A model generated the notes under the pieces. The model was not told where the DNA came from. It saw nothing but the letters and a program-made list of their open reading frames with translations, and searched no databases. This document shows positions 3,753 through 21,797 of a DNA stretch of 36,424 bases, one piece after another; position 1 is the first letter of the stretch, and each line of letters opens with the position of its first letter. This DNA is from an uncultured Lentisphaerota bacterium. Lineage in GTDB: Bacteria; Verrucomicrobiota; Kiritimatiellia; CAIQIC01. The stretch covers positions 1-36,424 of the forward strand of contig CAIQIC010000309.1 of assembly GCA_903871765.1 (NCBI GenBank), read 5' to 3'. A program made the translations under genes and the position numbers.

Positions 3753-3826
3753 TCAGAGCTTTGGAAAACTAACAACGGAGAATTCAGGTGAGAGATTATA
3801 ACCGTGGATATCGGGAAATTACTCAA

Positions 3827-6800
3827 ATGAAACGAATAAGAAAAATACGGGCGGTTGCGGCATTGTTGCTGGCGGGCAGTGGCGTGGCTGGGGCGGGCTG
3901 GTTCAAGACCGATATTGAGCCGGTGGATCTCAAATGCGAGTACCTTGAGAATCCGCTGGGGATCGACAGCCGCATACCGCGGCTATCGTGGACCATGGAC
4001 TGCAGACCACAGGCTGCAGACGGAAGACGGAGAGGAGATCGGCAAACGGCGTACCAGGTTTTGGTCGCGAGTTCGGAGGAGCTGCTCAAGAAGGGTAAAG
4101 GCGATCTGTGGGACAGCGGCAAGATCAAATCCGACAGCACTGCCCATGTCGAATATGCGGGCAGGCCCCTGCAGAGCCGCCAGCAGTGCTTCTGGAAAGT
4201 AAGGTTCTATAATCAGGACGACAAGGTGTCCGATTGGAGCGCGCCGGCCCGGTGGGAAATGGGTCTGCTCAAGCCGGAGGACTGGAAGGCCAGGTGGGTC
4301 GAGGGCGCGGGGTATAAATTTGTCGAAAAGAAAACCACGACGGCACCGGTATCACTCACCATTCTCAGCGCGGTTTATGGATCGGATGGAGCCGAGAAGA
4401 ATGTCACAGCGATTGTTGCCGGCTTGGTGAAGGATAATGGTCTGGCGATACACGTTGACAACGATACGCTCGGTGGCGATCCCAGCTTCGGCAATGTGAA
4501 GAAATTGTCCGTGGAGTATGAACTTGGCGGCAAACGCCTCAAGCGAACGGTGGACGAACATTCCGCTCTGTCCATTCCGGATGGCCTCCGGTTGTCAGCC
4601 AGCGCCGACGGGGTTCCGTACCTGCGCAAGACCATGAAGCTTGCCGACAAAACAATAACCAAGGCCAGGCTTTACGCGACCGCGCTGGGCCTCTATGAAA
4701 TGCATATTAACGGCCAACGCGTCGGCGACATTCTCTTTGCCCCGGAATGGACAGACTACCGCAAGCGCATCCGTTACCAGGTCTACGATGTGACCGCCAT
4801 GCTGAGGAAAGGCGACAACGTTCTTGCCGGACTGGTCGGCCAGGGCTGGTACAGCGGTCACATCGGGCTGGGCGGATACAAACACTACGGCCGGGTTCCG
4901 GCTTTGCTGGCACAACTGGAAGTAATTTACACCGACGGCACCGTGGAACAGATTGTTTCCGATGATTCATGGAAGGTGTTCGCCAGCCCCATCCTTTCAT
5001 CCGATTTCATGATGGGCGAGAAATATGATGCGCGCCTCGCAATCAAGGGATGGAACCAGCCTGGTTTTGATGACAGCACATGGATGAAAGCAGCAGTTCG
5101 TGAAGAGCCGCCGCGACCGTTGGAGGGGCAGATTACCGAACCCGTGCGCAAGATCTGCGAAATCAAGGCCAAGACCGTAACCGAACCCAAACCCGGCTGC
5201 TGGACTTTTGACCTTGGCCAGAACATGGTCGGCTATGTTCGCCTCCAAGTCTCTGCGCCGGCCGGGACTCAAGTGACCATCCGCCATGCCGAGGTGCTGA
5301 ATCCCGACGGCACGCTTTATACCGCCAACCTGCGTGGAGCGAGCTCGACCGACACCTATACCTGCAAGGGCGCAGGCGTCGAGATCTATCGGCCTTATTT
5401 CACGTTCCATGGGTTCCGCTATGTCGAGGTTACGGGGATCACCGGCAAACCGGCGCTGGATATGATAACAGGCCTTGTACTCGCCTCCGACACGCCGCGC
5501 GTCGGCGAGTTCGCCTGCTCCGACCCGCGCATCAATCAGCTCCACGCCAACATCTGCTGGGGCCAGCGCGGCAATTACCTGAGCATCCCCACCGACTGCC
5601 CGCAGCGTGACGAGCGGCTGGGCTGGATGGGCGACGCCCAGGTGTTCGTCCGCACAGCAACCTATAACGCCGATGTGGCCGCCTTCTTCACCAAGTGGCT
5701 GGTGGACGTCGATGACGCCCAGCGCGACGGGGCCTTCACCGATGTCAGCCCCTTCACCTGCTGTAATCAGGGAACCCCGGCCTGGGCGGATGCCGGTGTG
5801 ATCTGTCCCTGGACCCTGTACAGGATTTACGGCGACACCCGCCAGCTCGAACAGCACTATCCCGCCATGGTCAGATGGATTGAATGGTGCCGCGCTCACA
5901 GCACCGGCCTTATACGTGACAGAGATCGTGGCGGCGACTACGGCGACTGGCTGTCCATCGGCGCCGACACACCCAAGGACCTTATCGGTACCGCCTATTT
6001 CGCCTACTCCACCAGGCTGGTCGCCCAATCGGCCAAGGTGCTGGGCAAGCCGGACGATGCTGCAAAATACGAACAACTTTTCCAGGATATAAAGGCCGCC
6101 TTCAACAGGAAATACGTCGCCGCGGACGGACGCATCCAGGGCAATACCCAGTGCTGTTACGTGATGGCGCTCAAATTCGATCTTTTGACGGATGAGATCC
6201 GGACCAGGGCCGTGCAGTATCTTGTTGACGACATCGCGGCCAAGAAAGATCACCTCTCGACCGGCTTCGTTGGCGTCAGCTATCTCCTGCCGGTGTTGAC
6301 CCAGGCGGGACAACCCGATACCGTCTTCAAATTGTTCCTGCAGGATACCTTCCCGTCATGGCTGTTCTCCGTCAAACACGGGGCCACGACCATATGGGAA
6401 CGCTGGGATGGCTGGACGCCGGAAAGAGGTTTCCAGGATCCCGGCATGAACTCGTTCAACCACTACTCGCTCGGCTCTTGCGGGGAATGGATGTTCTCCG
6501 CGCTGGCAGGCATCGATACCGACGGACCAGCGTTCAAGAAGCTCATTATACGCCCAACTCCAGGTAACGGCATAACATGGGTCAAGGCCAGCTATGATTC
6601 GATCAACGGCAGGATCGCCACTTCATGGAAGACGGAGGGCCATAAATTCAGTCTCGATGTTACTGTTCCGCCCAACACCACGGCGACGATTTATGTGCCG
6701 ACGAAGGATGAAGCCAGTGTGACCGAGTCCGGCCAGCCGGCGCCCAAGGCGGCAGACGTGAAGTTCCTGCGGATGGAAGATGCCGCCGCCGTCTATGCCG

Positions 6801-6871
6801 TGGGTTCCGGCATCTATCGGTTCCAATCCACGCTGCAGGAAGCCAGCCAGAATCCGGCCCGGAAGATGTGA
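3827..6871 (+). CDS. Secreted alpha-L-rhamnosidase, GH78
   Basis: A 1014-residue enzyme that hydrolyses terminal alpha-L-rhamnose from plant glycans. Domain order is the GH78 standard: N-terminal fibronectin-like domain (ENPLGIDSRIPRLSW), beta-sandwich with EMHINGQRVGDILFAPEWTDYRKR, the (alpha/alpha)6 barrel, and a C-terminal beta-sandwich (LIIRPTPGNGITWVKASY). The barrel carries CPQRDERLGWMGDAQVF, whose Glu596 matches the family general acid, and TTIWERWDGW with Glu858, a likely second catalytic acid. I chose ATG 3827 because it gives a compact signal peptide (MKRIRKIRAVAALLLAGSG...). A GTG at 3788 in the same frame has a better ribosome site (GGAG at 3777-3780) and would add 13 residues. 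A short heptamer-repeat insertion lies in the N-terminal domain. The next gene starts 4 nt downstream. Confidence 0.95.
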   Translation: MKRIRKIRAVAALLLAGSGVAGAGWFKTDIEPVDLKCEYLENPLGIDSRIPRLSWTMDCRPQAADGRRRGDRQTAYQVLVASSEELLKKGKGDLWDSGKIKSDSTAHVEYAGRPLQSRQQCFWKVRFYNQDDKVSDWSAPARWEMGLLKPEDWKARWVEGAGYKFVEKKTTTAPVSLTILSAVYGSDGAEKNVTAIVAGLVKDNGLAIHVDNDTLGGDPSFGNVKKLSVEYELGGKRLKRTVDEHSALSIPDGLRLSASADGVPYLRKTMKLADKTITKARLYATALGLYEMHINGQRVGDILFAPEWTDYRKRIRYQVYDVTAMLRKGDNVLAGLVGQGWYSGHIGLGGYKHYGRVPALLAQLEVIYTDGTVEQIVSDDSWKVFASPILSSDFMMGEKYDARLAIKGWNQPGFDDSTWMKAAVREEPPRPLEGQITEPVRKICEIKAKTVTEPKPGCWTFDLGQNMVGYVRLQVSAPAGTQVTIRHAEVLNPDGTLYTANLRGASSTDTYTCKGAGVEIYRPYFTFHGFRYVEVTGITGKPALDMITGLVLASDTPRVGEFACSDPRINQLHANICWGQRGNYLSIPTDCPQRDERLGWMGDAQVFVRTATYNADVAAFFTKWLVDVDDAQRDGAFTDVSPFTCCNQGTPAWADAGVICPWTLYRIYGDTRQLEQHYPAMVRWIEWCRAHSTGLIRDRDRGGDYGDWLSIGADTPKDLIGTAYFAYSTRLVAQSAKVLGKPDDAAKYEQLFQDIKAAFNRKYVAADGRIQGNTQCCYVMALKFDLLTDEIRTRAVQYLVDDIAAKKDHLSTGFVGVSYLLPVLTQAGQPDTVFKLFLQDTFPSWLFSVKHGATTIWERWDGWTPERGFQDPGMNSFNHYSLGSCGEWMFSALAGIDTDGPAFKKLIIRPTPGNGITWVKASYDSINGRIATSWKTEGHKFSLDVTVPPNTTATIYVPTKDEASVTESGQPAPKAADVKFLRMEDAAAVYAVGSGIYRFQSTLQEASQNPARKM
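4000..4034 (+). repeat. Degenerate heptanucleotide repeat inside the rhamnosidase gene
   Basis: Five consecutive 7-mers read CTGCAGA, CCACAGG, CTGCAGA, CGGAAGA, CGGAGAG. The first and third are identical. They encode part of an Arg/Gly-rich stretch (CRPQAADGRRRGDR) placed between the conserved IPRLSW and QTAYQVLVAS segments of the GH78 N-terminal domain, where relatives usually have a shorter loop. It looks like an insertion tolerated in a loop. The same period-7 design recurs at 9655, 12669 and 21770. Confidence 0.55.
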
Positions 6872-9654: not shown

Positions 9655-9675
9655 TAGATTTCCGATTTCAGATTG
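9655..9675 (+). repeat. Period-7 repeat in the spacer before the GH116-like gene
   Basis: Three 7-mers, TAGATTT CCGATTT CAGATTG. Read on the opposite strand they are CAATCTG AAATCGG AAATCTA, closely matching the GGAAATCAGAAGTCAG type found at 12669-12738. The 107-nt spacer (9613-9719) otherwise shows no terminator or convincing promoter. Confidence 0.45.
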
Positions 9676-9719
9676 AGGAAAAGATAAACCGCAGAATGTT
9701 GGATGAACGTTGATGCGAA

Positions 9720-12700
9720 ATGAGCATGGCCAAGAAAATTGCTGATACTGAGTCATTTCCGGACGACACTGGCGCGGGCGTTGTATTCAGGAAACTCCCG
9801 ACCGAGGCCTGGTCCGCCGTGATCCCTGCGGAGAAGAATCTGCCGCCGGAGTGGGTGGCATCGCTATTTGTGCGCGGCCAGCCCAAGGTGTATACGGGCG
9901 AGGCCCTGATGAAGATCGGCATGCCGGTCGGGGGTGTCTGTGCCGGACTCGTTTACCTGGGCGGGGACGGGAAGCTGTGGTACTGGGACATTTTCAATCG
10001 CTATCTCTCCGGGGTACAGCCGCGCCAGATACAGTACCAGGGCCGCTCCTGGCACGGACTCCCGCAGGGGCTCGGCGCCTGGCAAGGCGGGAATTACATC
10101 GATCCGATCACCACGCAGCCGTGTCCGTTCCAGCAGGGCTTCGCGCTCAAAGTGACCGCCGGTGGAAAAGCCCAGGTGCGCACGCTGGACCGCAAGGGCT
10201 GGAAACTTGTCTCATTCACGGGCGCCTATCCGGTTGGCACGGTCAGGTACTTTGATCCGGACTGCCCGGTGCGGGTGACGCTGGAGGCCTACTCGCCTTA
10301 CTGCCCGTTGGATTTCGACAACTCCAGTTACCCGGCAACCATCATGCGTTACACCCTTGAGAATACCGGCAGGGAGGACGCCAGGGTTCAAGTGGGCGGG
10401 TGGCTTGAGAACCCGGTTCTGCTGGATACGGGCAAGGACTGTCCCGGCGTGCTCCGGCGCAATACCATGACCGTGAAGCCGGGGCTGGCCCTGCTCTCCT
10501 GTTCCGCCATAGTGCCGGCAGAGGAGCCGGTTGTTCGACCAGACATTGTGTTTGAAGATTTTGAGAAGGACACCTTCGAGGGCTGGGTGGTTGAAGGCAC
10601 GGCCTTCGGCAAAGGTCCGGTTGCGAAGAAGGATATGCCCGCCTACATGGGCGACATTGGAATGCGCGGCGGGCGCGCAGCCAACTCCCATGCCGGCGCC
10701 CCGATTAATGAATCAGCGGGACGGAATGAGGCGGCCGATGCGGCCGTGCGCGACCAGGCGACCGGCCGGTTGATCAGTCGTGAGTTTATGGTCGAGCGAA
10801 AACTTGTCGCGTTTCTTATCGGCGGAGGCAATTACCCCGGCCGCTGCTGTTTGAATCTTGTAGTGGATGGCAAGGTGGTGCGCAGCGCGACCGGCCACAA
10901 CGGCAATCTGATGCGCGCCGACCTGTTTGATGTCGGTGAGTTCGTCGGCAGGACTGCGCACATTGAGGTGGTGGACGACATGACGTGCGTTGCCGGCAAT
11001 ATCGGAGTGGATCACATTGTGTTCACCGAGGTCCAGCCGCCGAAACAGAATCCCGACTGGGGCACGATGGCGCTGGCGGCGGTCGGCCCAGCCGGGTGCG
11101 GTGGCAGCGCACGGTTGAAGAATGCGTCGGAGGCCGGGCTGTTCGAGGCTGGCGTCACATCCGAGGCGTCTGCACCGGCGGGAGACCAACTGGTGGGTGG
11201 CGTCACCCAATCCCTGACGCTGGCACCGGGCGCGCGTGGAACGGCTGAGTTTGTCATCGCCTGGCATTTTGCCAACGTGCCGGCCATGGCGCGGGGCAGC
11301 GAGACGGGCTGGTATTATGGGAAGCGCTTCGAGCATGCGGCGGCCGTGGCGGAGCACATCGCCGCAAACGCAGAAAAACTTTCGGCAATCACGATGCTCT
11401 GGCGCGCTACCTGGTACGACGCGACCCTGCCGTACTGGTTCCTGGACAGAACGTTTATCCCGCTGGATTGCCTGGCATCCACCACCTGTTTTCGGTTCGC
11501 CGACGGGCGCTTCTACACGTTCGAGGGGGTGCGCAGTTGCCCGGGCCACCCGAACCACGTCTGGCATTACGCGCAGGGGCATGCCCGGATCTTCCCCGAG
11601 CTGGAGCGGGATGTGCTGGAGCGCGTGTGGTATGGTTTCGCTTTTCACGATGACGGATCCATGGCCTGCCGGGGAGAACATGGCGGCGGGTCTGCGATAG
11701 ACGGGCACTGCGGCGCCATCCTTTCCGTTCTGCGGGCGCACCAGACGAATCCGGATGGCACGCTGCTGGCGCGCATCTGGCCCAGGGTAAAAAAGTCCAT
11801 TGAGTACGCCAATGCACGTGACCGTGACGGTGACGGGCTGCTGGATACGCCGATGCTCACTACGCTGGATGAACCCTGGCATGGCCAGATCCCCTGGCTC
11901 AGCAGTCTCTACCTCGCCGCGCTCAAGGCCGGCGAACAGATGGCGACGGAGATGGGCGATGCGGAGTTTGCGCAGGATTGCCGCGACCGGGCTGCCAAGG
12001 GACGCACCGCGATGGATGCCAAGCTCTTTAACGGCGAGTGGTTTGTCCAGATCCCCGACCCGGCGAACCCTGAGAAACTGGGCGCCTACGAGACCTGCCA
12101 CATTGACCAGGTGCTGGGGCAGGGCTGGGCCTGGCAGGTCGGGTTGGAGCGGGTGCTCAACGCAGCCACCACCCGCTCGGCGCTGCGCTCGATCTGGAAA
12201 TACAATTTTACCCGGAACCTGGAGGCCTACGACCGGCAGAGCGATCCCAAAGGACGCCCGTATTTTGCCCGTGGCGAGGGCGGGCTAGTCATGACCGCCA
12301 ATGCGCTGGGACGCAAGGTGCCGCTGGGCATCTACTCGCCCTTTGCCTGCTATCTGAACGAAACTATGAATGGATTTGAATATCAGGCGGCGGCGCACAT
12401 GATCGCCGAAGGCCTGGTCAAGGAAGGCCTGGCCGTGATCCGCACGGTGGACGACCGTTACGACGGGAACAAGCGCAACCCGTTTAATGAGATTGAATGC
12501 GGCGATCATTATGCCCGTTCCCTGGCAAGCTACGGAGCGCTCATCGCCATTTCAGGATTCGAATACCACGGGCCCAAGGGACACATCGGGTTTGCGCCGA
12601 GGCTGGCGCCCGAAAATTTCAAGGCGCCGTTCACGGCGGCGGAAGGGTGGGGGACGTATGAGCAGAGAATTCAGGAGTCAGAAGACAGGAGTCGGAAATC

Positions 12701-12941
12701 AGAAGTCAGAGGACAGCAGGCAGAGATCAGAAGCCAAATAACTGTGAAATATGGCCGGCTGCGGGTGAAGACGGTTTCGCTGGCGCTGTCCAAGGACGGG
12801 AAGTCGCGTGCGGCGAAGGTTTCCGTGAAGGGCAAGGCGGTTGCCAACAAGCTGGCTCTCAAGGATGGCAAGGCCATCATTACCCTCGCGGCCGAAGCGG
12901 TGATAAAAGCGGGCGAGTCACTGGAAGTGGTTGTTTGGTGA
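9720..12941 (+). CDS. GH116/DUF608-type glycosidase with inserted carbohydrate-binding-like domain
   Basis: A 1073-residue protein related to bile-acid beta-glucosidase GBA2 and bacterial GH116 enzymes (beta-glucosidase, beta-xylosidase or glucosaminidase). The N-terminal beta-sandwich starts with GMPVGGVCAGLVYLGGDGKLWYWDIFNR, the best DUF608 signature. The (alpha/alpha)6 barrel begins near residue 560; FYTFEG (Glu602) and TTLDEPWHGQIPWLSSLY (Asp717) are the likely nucleophile and acid/base by motif. Residues about 280-450 interrupt the sandwich with a module ending in VDHIVFTEVQ that resembles the extra beta-domain of some GH32 enzymes. Near residue 985 a heptamer-repeat insertion adds a charged tail segment. 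No signal peptide is visible, so it may act in the cytoplasm on imported oligosaccharides. No strong ribosome site is seen at ATG 9720. Confidence 0.88.
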   Translation: MSMAKKIADTESFPDDTGAGVVFRKLPTEAWSAVIPAEKNLPPEWVASLFVRGQPKVYTGEALMKIGMPVGGVCAGLVYLGGDGKLWYWDIFNRYLSGVQPRQIQYQGRSWHGLPQGLGAWQGGNYIDPITTQPCPFQQGFALKVTAGGKAQVRTLDRKGWKLVSFTGAYPVGTVRYFDPDCPVRVTLEAYSPYCPLDFDNSSYPATIMRYTLENTGREDARVQVGGWLENPVLLDTGKDCPGVLRRNTMTVKPGLALLSCSAIVPAEEPVVRPDIVFEDFEKDTFEGWVVEGTAFGKGPVAKKDMPAYMGDIGMRGGRAANSHAGAPINESAGRNEAADAAVRDQATGRLISREFMVERKLVAFLIGGGNYPGRCCLNLVVDGKVVRSATGHNGNLMRADLFDVGEFVGRTAHIEVVDDMTCVAGNIGVDHIVFTEVQPPKQNPDWGTMALAAVGPAGCGGSARLKNASEAGLFEAGVTSEASAPAGDQLVGGVTQSLTLAPGARGTAEFVIAWHFANVPAMARGSETGWYYGKRFEHAAAVAEHIAANAEKLSAITMLWRATWYDATLPYWFLDRTFIPLDCLASTTCFRFADGRFYTFEGVRSCPGHPNHVWHYAQGHARIFPELERDVLERVWYGFAFHDDGSMACRGEHGGGSAIDGHCGAILSVLRAHQTNPDGTLLARIWPRVKKSIEYANARDRDGDGLLDTPMLTTLDEPWHGQIPWLSSLYLAALKAGEQMATEMGDAEFAQDCRDRAAKGRTAMDAKLFNGEWFVQIPDPANPEKLGAYETCHIDQVLGQGWAWQVGLERVLNAATTRSALRSIWKYNFTRNLEAYDRQSDPKGRPYFARGEGGLVMTANALGRKVPLGIYSPFACYLNETMNGFEYQAAAHMIAEGLVKEGLAVIRTVDDRYDGNKRNPFNEIECGDHYARSLASYGALIAISGFEYHGPKGHIGFAPRLAPENFKAPFTAAEGWGTYEQRIQESEDRSRKSEVRGQQAEIRSQITVKYGRLRVKTVSLALSKDGKSRAAKVSVKGKAVANKLALKDGKAIITLAAEAVIKAGESLEVVVW
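12669..12738 (+). repeat. Ten-unit degenerate heptamer repeat inside the GH116-like gene
   Basis: Ten contiguous 7-mers can be read: ATTCAGG AGTCAGA AGACAGG, then AGTCGGA AATCAGA, AGTCAGA GGACAGC, AGGCAGA GATCAGA and AGCCAAA. The consensus is about AGTCAGA. Because three units equal seven codons, the encoded peptide also repeats every seven residues: QESEDRS, RKSEVRG, QQAEIRS. The frame stays open, and recognisable enzyme sequence resumes at VKYGRLRVKTV. Confidence 0.75.
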
Positions 12942-21761: not shown

Positions 21762-21769
21762 AAAAAAGG

Positions 21770-21797
21770 TTGCAGGCTGAAGGCCGCCTGCGCGCTG
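21770..21797 (+). repeat. Period-7 repeat with hairpin between purD and purE
   Basis: Four 7-mers, TTGCAGG CTGAAGG CCGCCTG CGCGCTG, fall in the 79-nt purD-purE spacer. GCAGGC (21772-21777) and GCCTGC (21786-21791) form a 6-bp stem with an 8-nt loop. No T-run follows. Composition and period resemble the heptamer stretches at 4000 and 12669. Confidence 0.35.

Follow-up and report, generated by a model that had tools for sequence, protein, structure and literature searches.

Cyanobacterial STRRs are degenerate tandem 7-bp arrays dispersed in the genome, and their origin has been described as unknown. The Rickettsia palindromic elements (RPEs) are short repeats that sit in frame within protein-coding genes. 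Another set of heptamers, the TAACTGA repeats of Beggiatoaceae, Cyanobacteria and Bacteroidetes, is patchily distributed across phyla, and horizontal transfer is suspected in the passages of PMC4679880 that deal with them. The closest precedent for the elements described here is the intervening sequence (IVS) of Coxiella burnetii 23S rRNA, in which GACAGAT/GACAGAA heptamers of variable copy number lie beside an S23p/IVP open reading frame (ORF), inverted repeats form a stem cut by RNase III, and a mobile origin has been proposed (PMC4990558). The intervening-sequence protein IVP is a four-helix bundle (TIGR02436; solved relatives 2rld and 2gsc) and is homologous to Avd of diversity-generating retroelements (DGRs; PMC10053308).

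The full elements reported below resemble the 23S rRNA IVS in carrying an IVP-family ORF between stem-capable inverted repeats, with heptamers, but they sit in protein-gene spacers, have long degenerate arms of many flavours and are accompanied by dispersed gene-less derivatives. They share with the STRRs the dispersed, degenerate arrays of 7-bp units, which here are tied to a gene-carrying element. They also share with the TAACTGA repeats the heptamer unit and the patchy spread over phyla, whereas those are direct repeats upstream of starts, with one inverted case, and the passages on them in PMC4679880 hold no link to IVP. RPEs form one family of palindromic units, unlike the one-armed array of the present locus. 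No description of a link between heptamers and IVP was found in the open-access literature, most subscription journals lying outside the search.

The window, the whole 36,424-nucleotide stretch of an uncultured Lentisphaerota bacterium that was analysed, contains one array that is unmistakable (Table 1). The heptamer model, which has a fixed centre and Markov controls (its unit is nearly palindromic, so a reversed-sequence control is uninformative), scores this main tract at 82 bits as 12666-12736, TRF reports 14/28-mer rows there, and it is the strongest period-7/14/28 array of the whole window. A sequence-only reading had claimed a period-7 tract at 12669-12738, and this claim holds. The tract is in frame with its host ORF, and the seven-residue peptide repeat that had been read in it follows from the length of three heptamers, 21 nt. 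Three homologues of about 48% identity (L073, L074 and L075) lack the insert: they read GWGTFEQKFEIS-NFKAQIALKWG or similar where the window protein has GWGTYEQRIQESEDRSRKSEVRGQQAEIRSQITVKYG, a net gain of 14 aa, or 42 nt, equal to six heptamers.

Table 1. Heptamer tracts of the window and the ORFs that host them.
Feature	Position	Strand	Context or basis
One-armed array of about 10 degenerate GTCAGAA heptamers (main tract)	12666..12744	+	Heptamer model, TRF, homologues
Host ORF of the main tract, 1073 aa	9720..12941	+	Insert in C-terminal loop (EQRIQESEDRSRKSEVRGQQAEIRSQITVKYG)
Weak tract resembling heptamers (ACTGCAG...), net gain of 21 nt	3998..4034	+	N-terminal loop, insertion hotspot among paralogues
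Host ORF of the 3998-4034 tract	3788..6871	+	Presumably alpha-L-rhamnosidase-like
Short intergenic AATCTGA/AATCGGA tract, 2.7 copies	9656..9680	-	18 bits, noise level alone
Claimed heptamer tract, not above background	21767..21797	+	Period-7 score 17/28

The other tracts claimed alongside it fared unevenly. That all four are real was rejected: those put at 9655-9675 and 21770-21797 are at noise level by themselves, like the best windows at other lags, although the AATCCGA-like unit of the former agrees with the arm flavour, AATCCGA, of L281, an IVP gene in the same genome. Both of these lie between ORFs, and the two coding tracts do keep the frame, as had been noted. The tract claimed at 4000-4034 does not stand by its own score, with a period-7 value of 19/28 that is not above the best window at other lags and at most 17 bits against the learned heptamer model. 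The putative insert is supported by paralogue comparison rather than by its own sequence, with 7 aa (21 nt) more than insert-free paralogues and stronger heptamer inserts at the same loop of others. The host protein is presumably alpha-L-rhamnosidase-like, judging by its sequence. The segment PRLSW...RGxxQTAYQVLVA of such proteins is short in most paralogues, and inserts in this loop within the host genus are of the flavours GTCAGAG/GCCAGAG (L095, L100, L094), GAAACTT (L099) and AATCCGA (L093). Compared with a second paralogue from L093, L094 has exactly 7 more residues, the equivalent of three heptamers. From the several flavours and the 7-residue step it follows that coding insertions are real, keep the frame and recur at one permissive loop. 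A second loop, after VRVW, holds further in-frame short repeats in the rhamnosidase proteins L107, L097, L101 and L100 (PALSSVEG x4, GSVALAKEP, PSTSLRAG and a GACAACG heptamer encoding NDKTDNGQPTTDNSS), which look like more dispersed repeat families.

Could such arrays simply have grown in place? Under pure replication slippage, chance heptamer-like seeds such as the RGQKQ codons would expand locally and nothing would move. The three-heptamer step between L093 and L094 fits this, the conserved loop codons AGA GGA CAG AAA CAG resemble the heptamer unit, and 7 nt suits polymerase slippage, a view cited in the passages of PMC4679880 on such repeats. Against it stands the recurrence of one unit at many unrelated sites in many phyla, together with the architecture of the arrays and the occupied and empty sites set out below, and slippage as the whole account is unlikely.

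The expected genome-wide excess of period 7 was found, in a source genome that is 82% complete. In its 3.92-Mb assembly GTCAGARGTCAGA has 224 matches with up to two mismatches and 63 with up to one, against 87 and 11 for the reversed pattern. Tracts of at least 30 bits number 35 in the selected contigs plus the window and none in Markov sequence; unselected contigs, several of them masked throughout, give 3. Many of the compared genomes are MAGs, some with masked contigs. A blindly chosen 400 kb of sequence from the relative G004 contains 11 period-7 tracts, where shuffles contain none; periods 14 and 21 appear as harmonics, and periods 5, 8, 10, 11 and 13 give 0-1 tracts. The flavours of the period-7 tracts are diverse (GATGTTC, CCATTCT, GATTTAA, GTCAGTT). 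G031, which has no IVP, has one GC-rich period-7 tract in 359 kb.

Neighbouring tracts of the source genome have a preferred arrangement. Among 14 cases no more than 200 bp apart, 11 are '+-', none '-+', two '--' and one '++', the common form being a GTCAGAA array, a short core and a TTCTGAC array, with cores of 16-101 bp that are mostly dissimilar to one another. When named genomes were scanned for CAGAATTCAGAAT followed by ATTCTGAMTYCTG at a distance of 40-70 bases, at least 113 stretches matched. Among the matches listed, this inverted architecture occurs in more than 12 phyla, including Nostoc, Anabaena, Armatimonadota, Verrucomicrobia, Acidobacteria, Chloroflexi, Firmicutes (Pelotomaculum, Desulfoscipio), Elusimicrobia, Chlamydiae, Desulfobacterota, Bacteroidetes and others. 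The comparison with cyanobacterial STRRs made from the sequence alone was thus apt, since Nostoc and Anabaena have the same inverted arrays. Part of the matches are unrelated, as in Planctomyces SH-PL62-like genomes, where the match is a 70-bp element with GGTGCCTGACCCC ends. In five such MAG loci (L137, L139, L157, L170, L203) this palindrome is constant, with ends GGGGTCAGGCACCG / CGGTGCCTGACCCC around CAGAATTCAGAAT; it is probably a MITE that has nothing to do with the heptamers. Distant genomes picked solely for an inverted pair contain IVP in 13 of 14 cases; a 590-bp inverted pair at L037, a candidate holder, has no recognised IVP among its ORFs.

The gene between such arrays points to their source. 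Of 38 relatives, 35 have PF05635 (IVP), with 1-16 copies per genome, and the 14 control genomes have none; the IVP ORFs of full elements match TIGR02436 at 1e-17 to 1e-32 as well as PF05635. Of the 78 flanks of 39 IVP genes, 58 have a period-7 array within 150 bp, and 25 of the genes have one on either side; among random flanks the figure is 20 of 6000. The left arm matches the reverse complement of its own right arm with a median score of 21, against 9 for mismatched pairs; in 26 of the 39 elements an arm's own partner is its best match, and the score is at least 16 in 32 of the 39 (random, 1.15%). At least 25 arm-to-arm base pairs are predicted in 32/39 elements and 25/120 controls. Matched arms past the 1% level of random segments were found at 24 of 30 IVP loci of distant genomes, and two Anabaena IVP genes are flanked by ATTAGTC and AAAATTC arrays. 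Arm flavour varies from gene to gene (CGAACAT, GAAACCT, GTCAGTT, GTCAGAA, GGCTGAA), and about one fifth of IVP loci have no clear arms. The IVP gene at L304 is flanked by inverted TCGTCC-type repeats in which a period of 7 is not evident, so that IVP arms of other periods may exist.

These matched arms speak against slippage. The sequence-only reading, whose tests came out in its favour, had also proposed an independent, spreading or slippage-generated family, and this part does not hold: on the favoured reading the arrays are the inverted ends of IVP elements, unit and architecture are common to more than 12 phyla among the matches listed, and slippage alone cannot produce matched reverse-complement arrays on either side of a gene. 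The 88% conservation of flanks had raised the suspicion that the loci are insertions of the classical kind in 23S rRNA; this was rejected as well, since Rfam finds only tRNAs and no rRNA at 40 IVP loci, which sit in protein-gene spacers. Over 38 genomes, IVP number correlates with GTCAGAA count (rho 0.31) no better than with a control pattern (rho 0.31); the three IVP-less genomes have 0-2 GTCAGAA hits.

Orthologous spacers were compared across species at four sites, and occupied and IVP-less states of the element, of about 0.5 kb, were seen at all four loci, a difference that local slippage does not account for. The spacer of L303, between genes taken by eye from the sequence to be leuC and leuD, holds a full element in G005, 9 bp in G003, 27 bp in G000 and the right-hand array alone in G002 and G004. 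The L305 site is empty in G003, G000 and G001 and has short gene-less pairs of a different flavour in G002 and G004; the L293 site is empty in G002; and the L287 site has short or one-armed arrays in other species. At L293 (1860-1930) the G004 gene after the IVP element seems, by eye, to start inside the heptamer array (MTNSDTRHETQNTRRTALV), which replaces the MKRVALV start of G002. L291 and L280, L298 and L306 share one genomic site, where the G002 IVP gene is unlike the others at the DNA level and both its arms are of another flavour, as though one element had replaced another at a preferred site.

The same sites bear on the idea that heptamer arrays are primary and separate, and that IVP genes insert into them. 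One-armed and gene-less arrays are indeed common, even at sites where the element is complete in a relative (L383 and L385 against L303). Insertion into a direct array, however, predicts flanks in the same orientation, whereas those observed are inverted and matched, and the empty sites of G003, G000 and G001 have no arrays, which makes this order of events very unlikely. Copying of flavour from the target site was also rejected, being suggestive at leuC/leuD and absent at three other sites. Orthologous elements drift in flavour: L276, L310 and L288 carry GGCTGAA, AGACTTA and GGCTCTA, both arms having shifted together. Arm scores average 23.6 within an element and 19.0 when the opposite arms come from two different species, though these pairs are not independent.

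Some short pairs retain traces of the gene. Some cores, read on the opposite strand, are the IVP C-terminus. Eleven short GTCAGAA pairs have an IVP match, which is the C-terminus alone (EEVSKLLEAYSQAILNSDS type) in nine and the whole IVP in two. The C-terminus-only pairs come from six loci of one Armatimonad MAG, from a Clostridiales and a Dethiobacter and, weakly, from L031 of the source genome, and a C-terminus alone between arms implies internal deletion. The codons of this terminus, ATT CTG AAT TCT GAC TCC (ILNSDS), are heptamers themselves. No trace of IVP can be recognised in the majority of short pairs. In the 82% complete source genome a search for an intact IVP with GTCAGAA arms found none, the nearest trace being the L031 remnant (E 0.3). 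No inverted partner array was found downstream of the main tract, which has no IVP-type ORF, second arm, core or stem-forming inverted repeats. Since second arm and core are missing, its proposed derivation from an IVP element would rest on family resemblance.

Alternatively, the arms might be selected regulatory hairpins (terminators or RNase III sites) near IVP, and the dispersed arrays independent regulators like the TAACTGA repeats. The Coxiella IVS stem is cut by RNase III (PMC4990558), TAACTGA repeats lie immediately upstream of start codons in the passages of PMC4679880, and many arrays here fall between stop and start codons. Element-specific flavours, arrays within coding sequence and IVP relics inside gene-less pairs all argue otherwise, and this explanation is very unlikely. 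The RNase III-cut stem and GACAGAT heptamers of Coxiella suggest, by analogy, that the arms of IVP elements may act as an RNA stem.

Neither a target-site duplication nor a moving enzyme was identified for IVP elements, and the searches run found no known catalytic domain in IVP proteins. IVP is homologous to Avd (PMC10053308), and the L301 IVP matches NF033474 at 1.3e-11, though under the cut-off of that model. RVT_1 has no match in the IVP-bearing G000 (82% complete) and G002, G003, G004 and G005 (94-96% complete), so that a reverse transcriptase, missing from the four element-bearing genomes G002-G005, was rejected as mover; in this the elements differ from DGRs. The Y1 transposase, of the RAYT kind that accompanies REP/REPIN elements, is absent from G020 and G031, which have no IVP, and also from G035, which has three (Fisher p 0.013). 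Y1 and IVP are jointly missing in two of three cases (G020, G031, G035, G025), with one counter-example each way. The co-absence is suggestive of a role for Y1, with G035 as a counter-example.

The favoured reading, which we consider likely, is that heptamer arrays are the inverted ends, or relics, of mobile IVP elements and that the window tract is a one-armed relic. A full element of about 0.5 kb consists of a heptamer array, an IVP gene (PF05635/TIGR02436) and a reverse-complement array, its arms presumably pairing in vivo as a long stem. Each has its own flavour, with arms that stay matched as flavour drifts between species, and would enter intergenic spacers and permissive coding loops. 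Movement may involve RNase III-like processing of the stem and a host enzyme. Internal deletion would give short pairs with a core of 15-130 bp between the arms, and these one-armed arrays like that of the window, whose length could then shift by heptamer slippage; within genes, frame-keeping lengths alone would survive.

A broader proposition, which could as readily prove wrong as right, is that bacterial degenerate heptamers, STRRs included, are the ends or relics of one mobile class with an Avd-like four-helix protein, whose arms renew each other, each insertion having its own 7-bp flavour, and whose movement relies on no transposase or reverse transcriptase carried by the element itself. 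The link between heptamers and IVP joins two old puzzles, the origin of heptamer repeats and the role of IVP, known mostly from 23S rRNA. It provides an origin for peptides that are inserted in frame in bacterial proteins, and can be tested directly in any genome.
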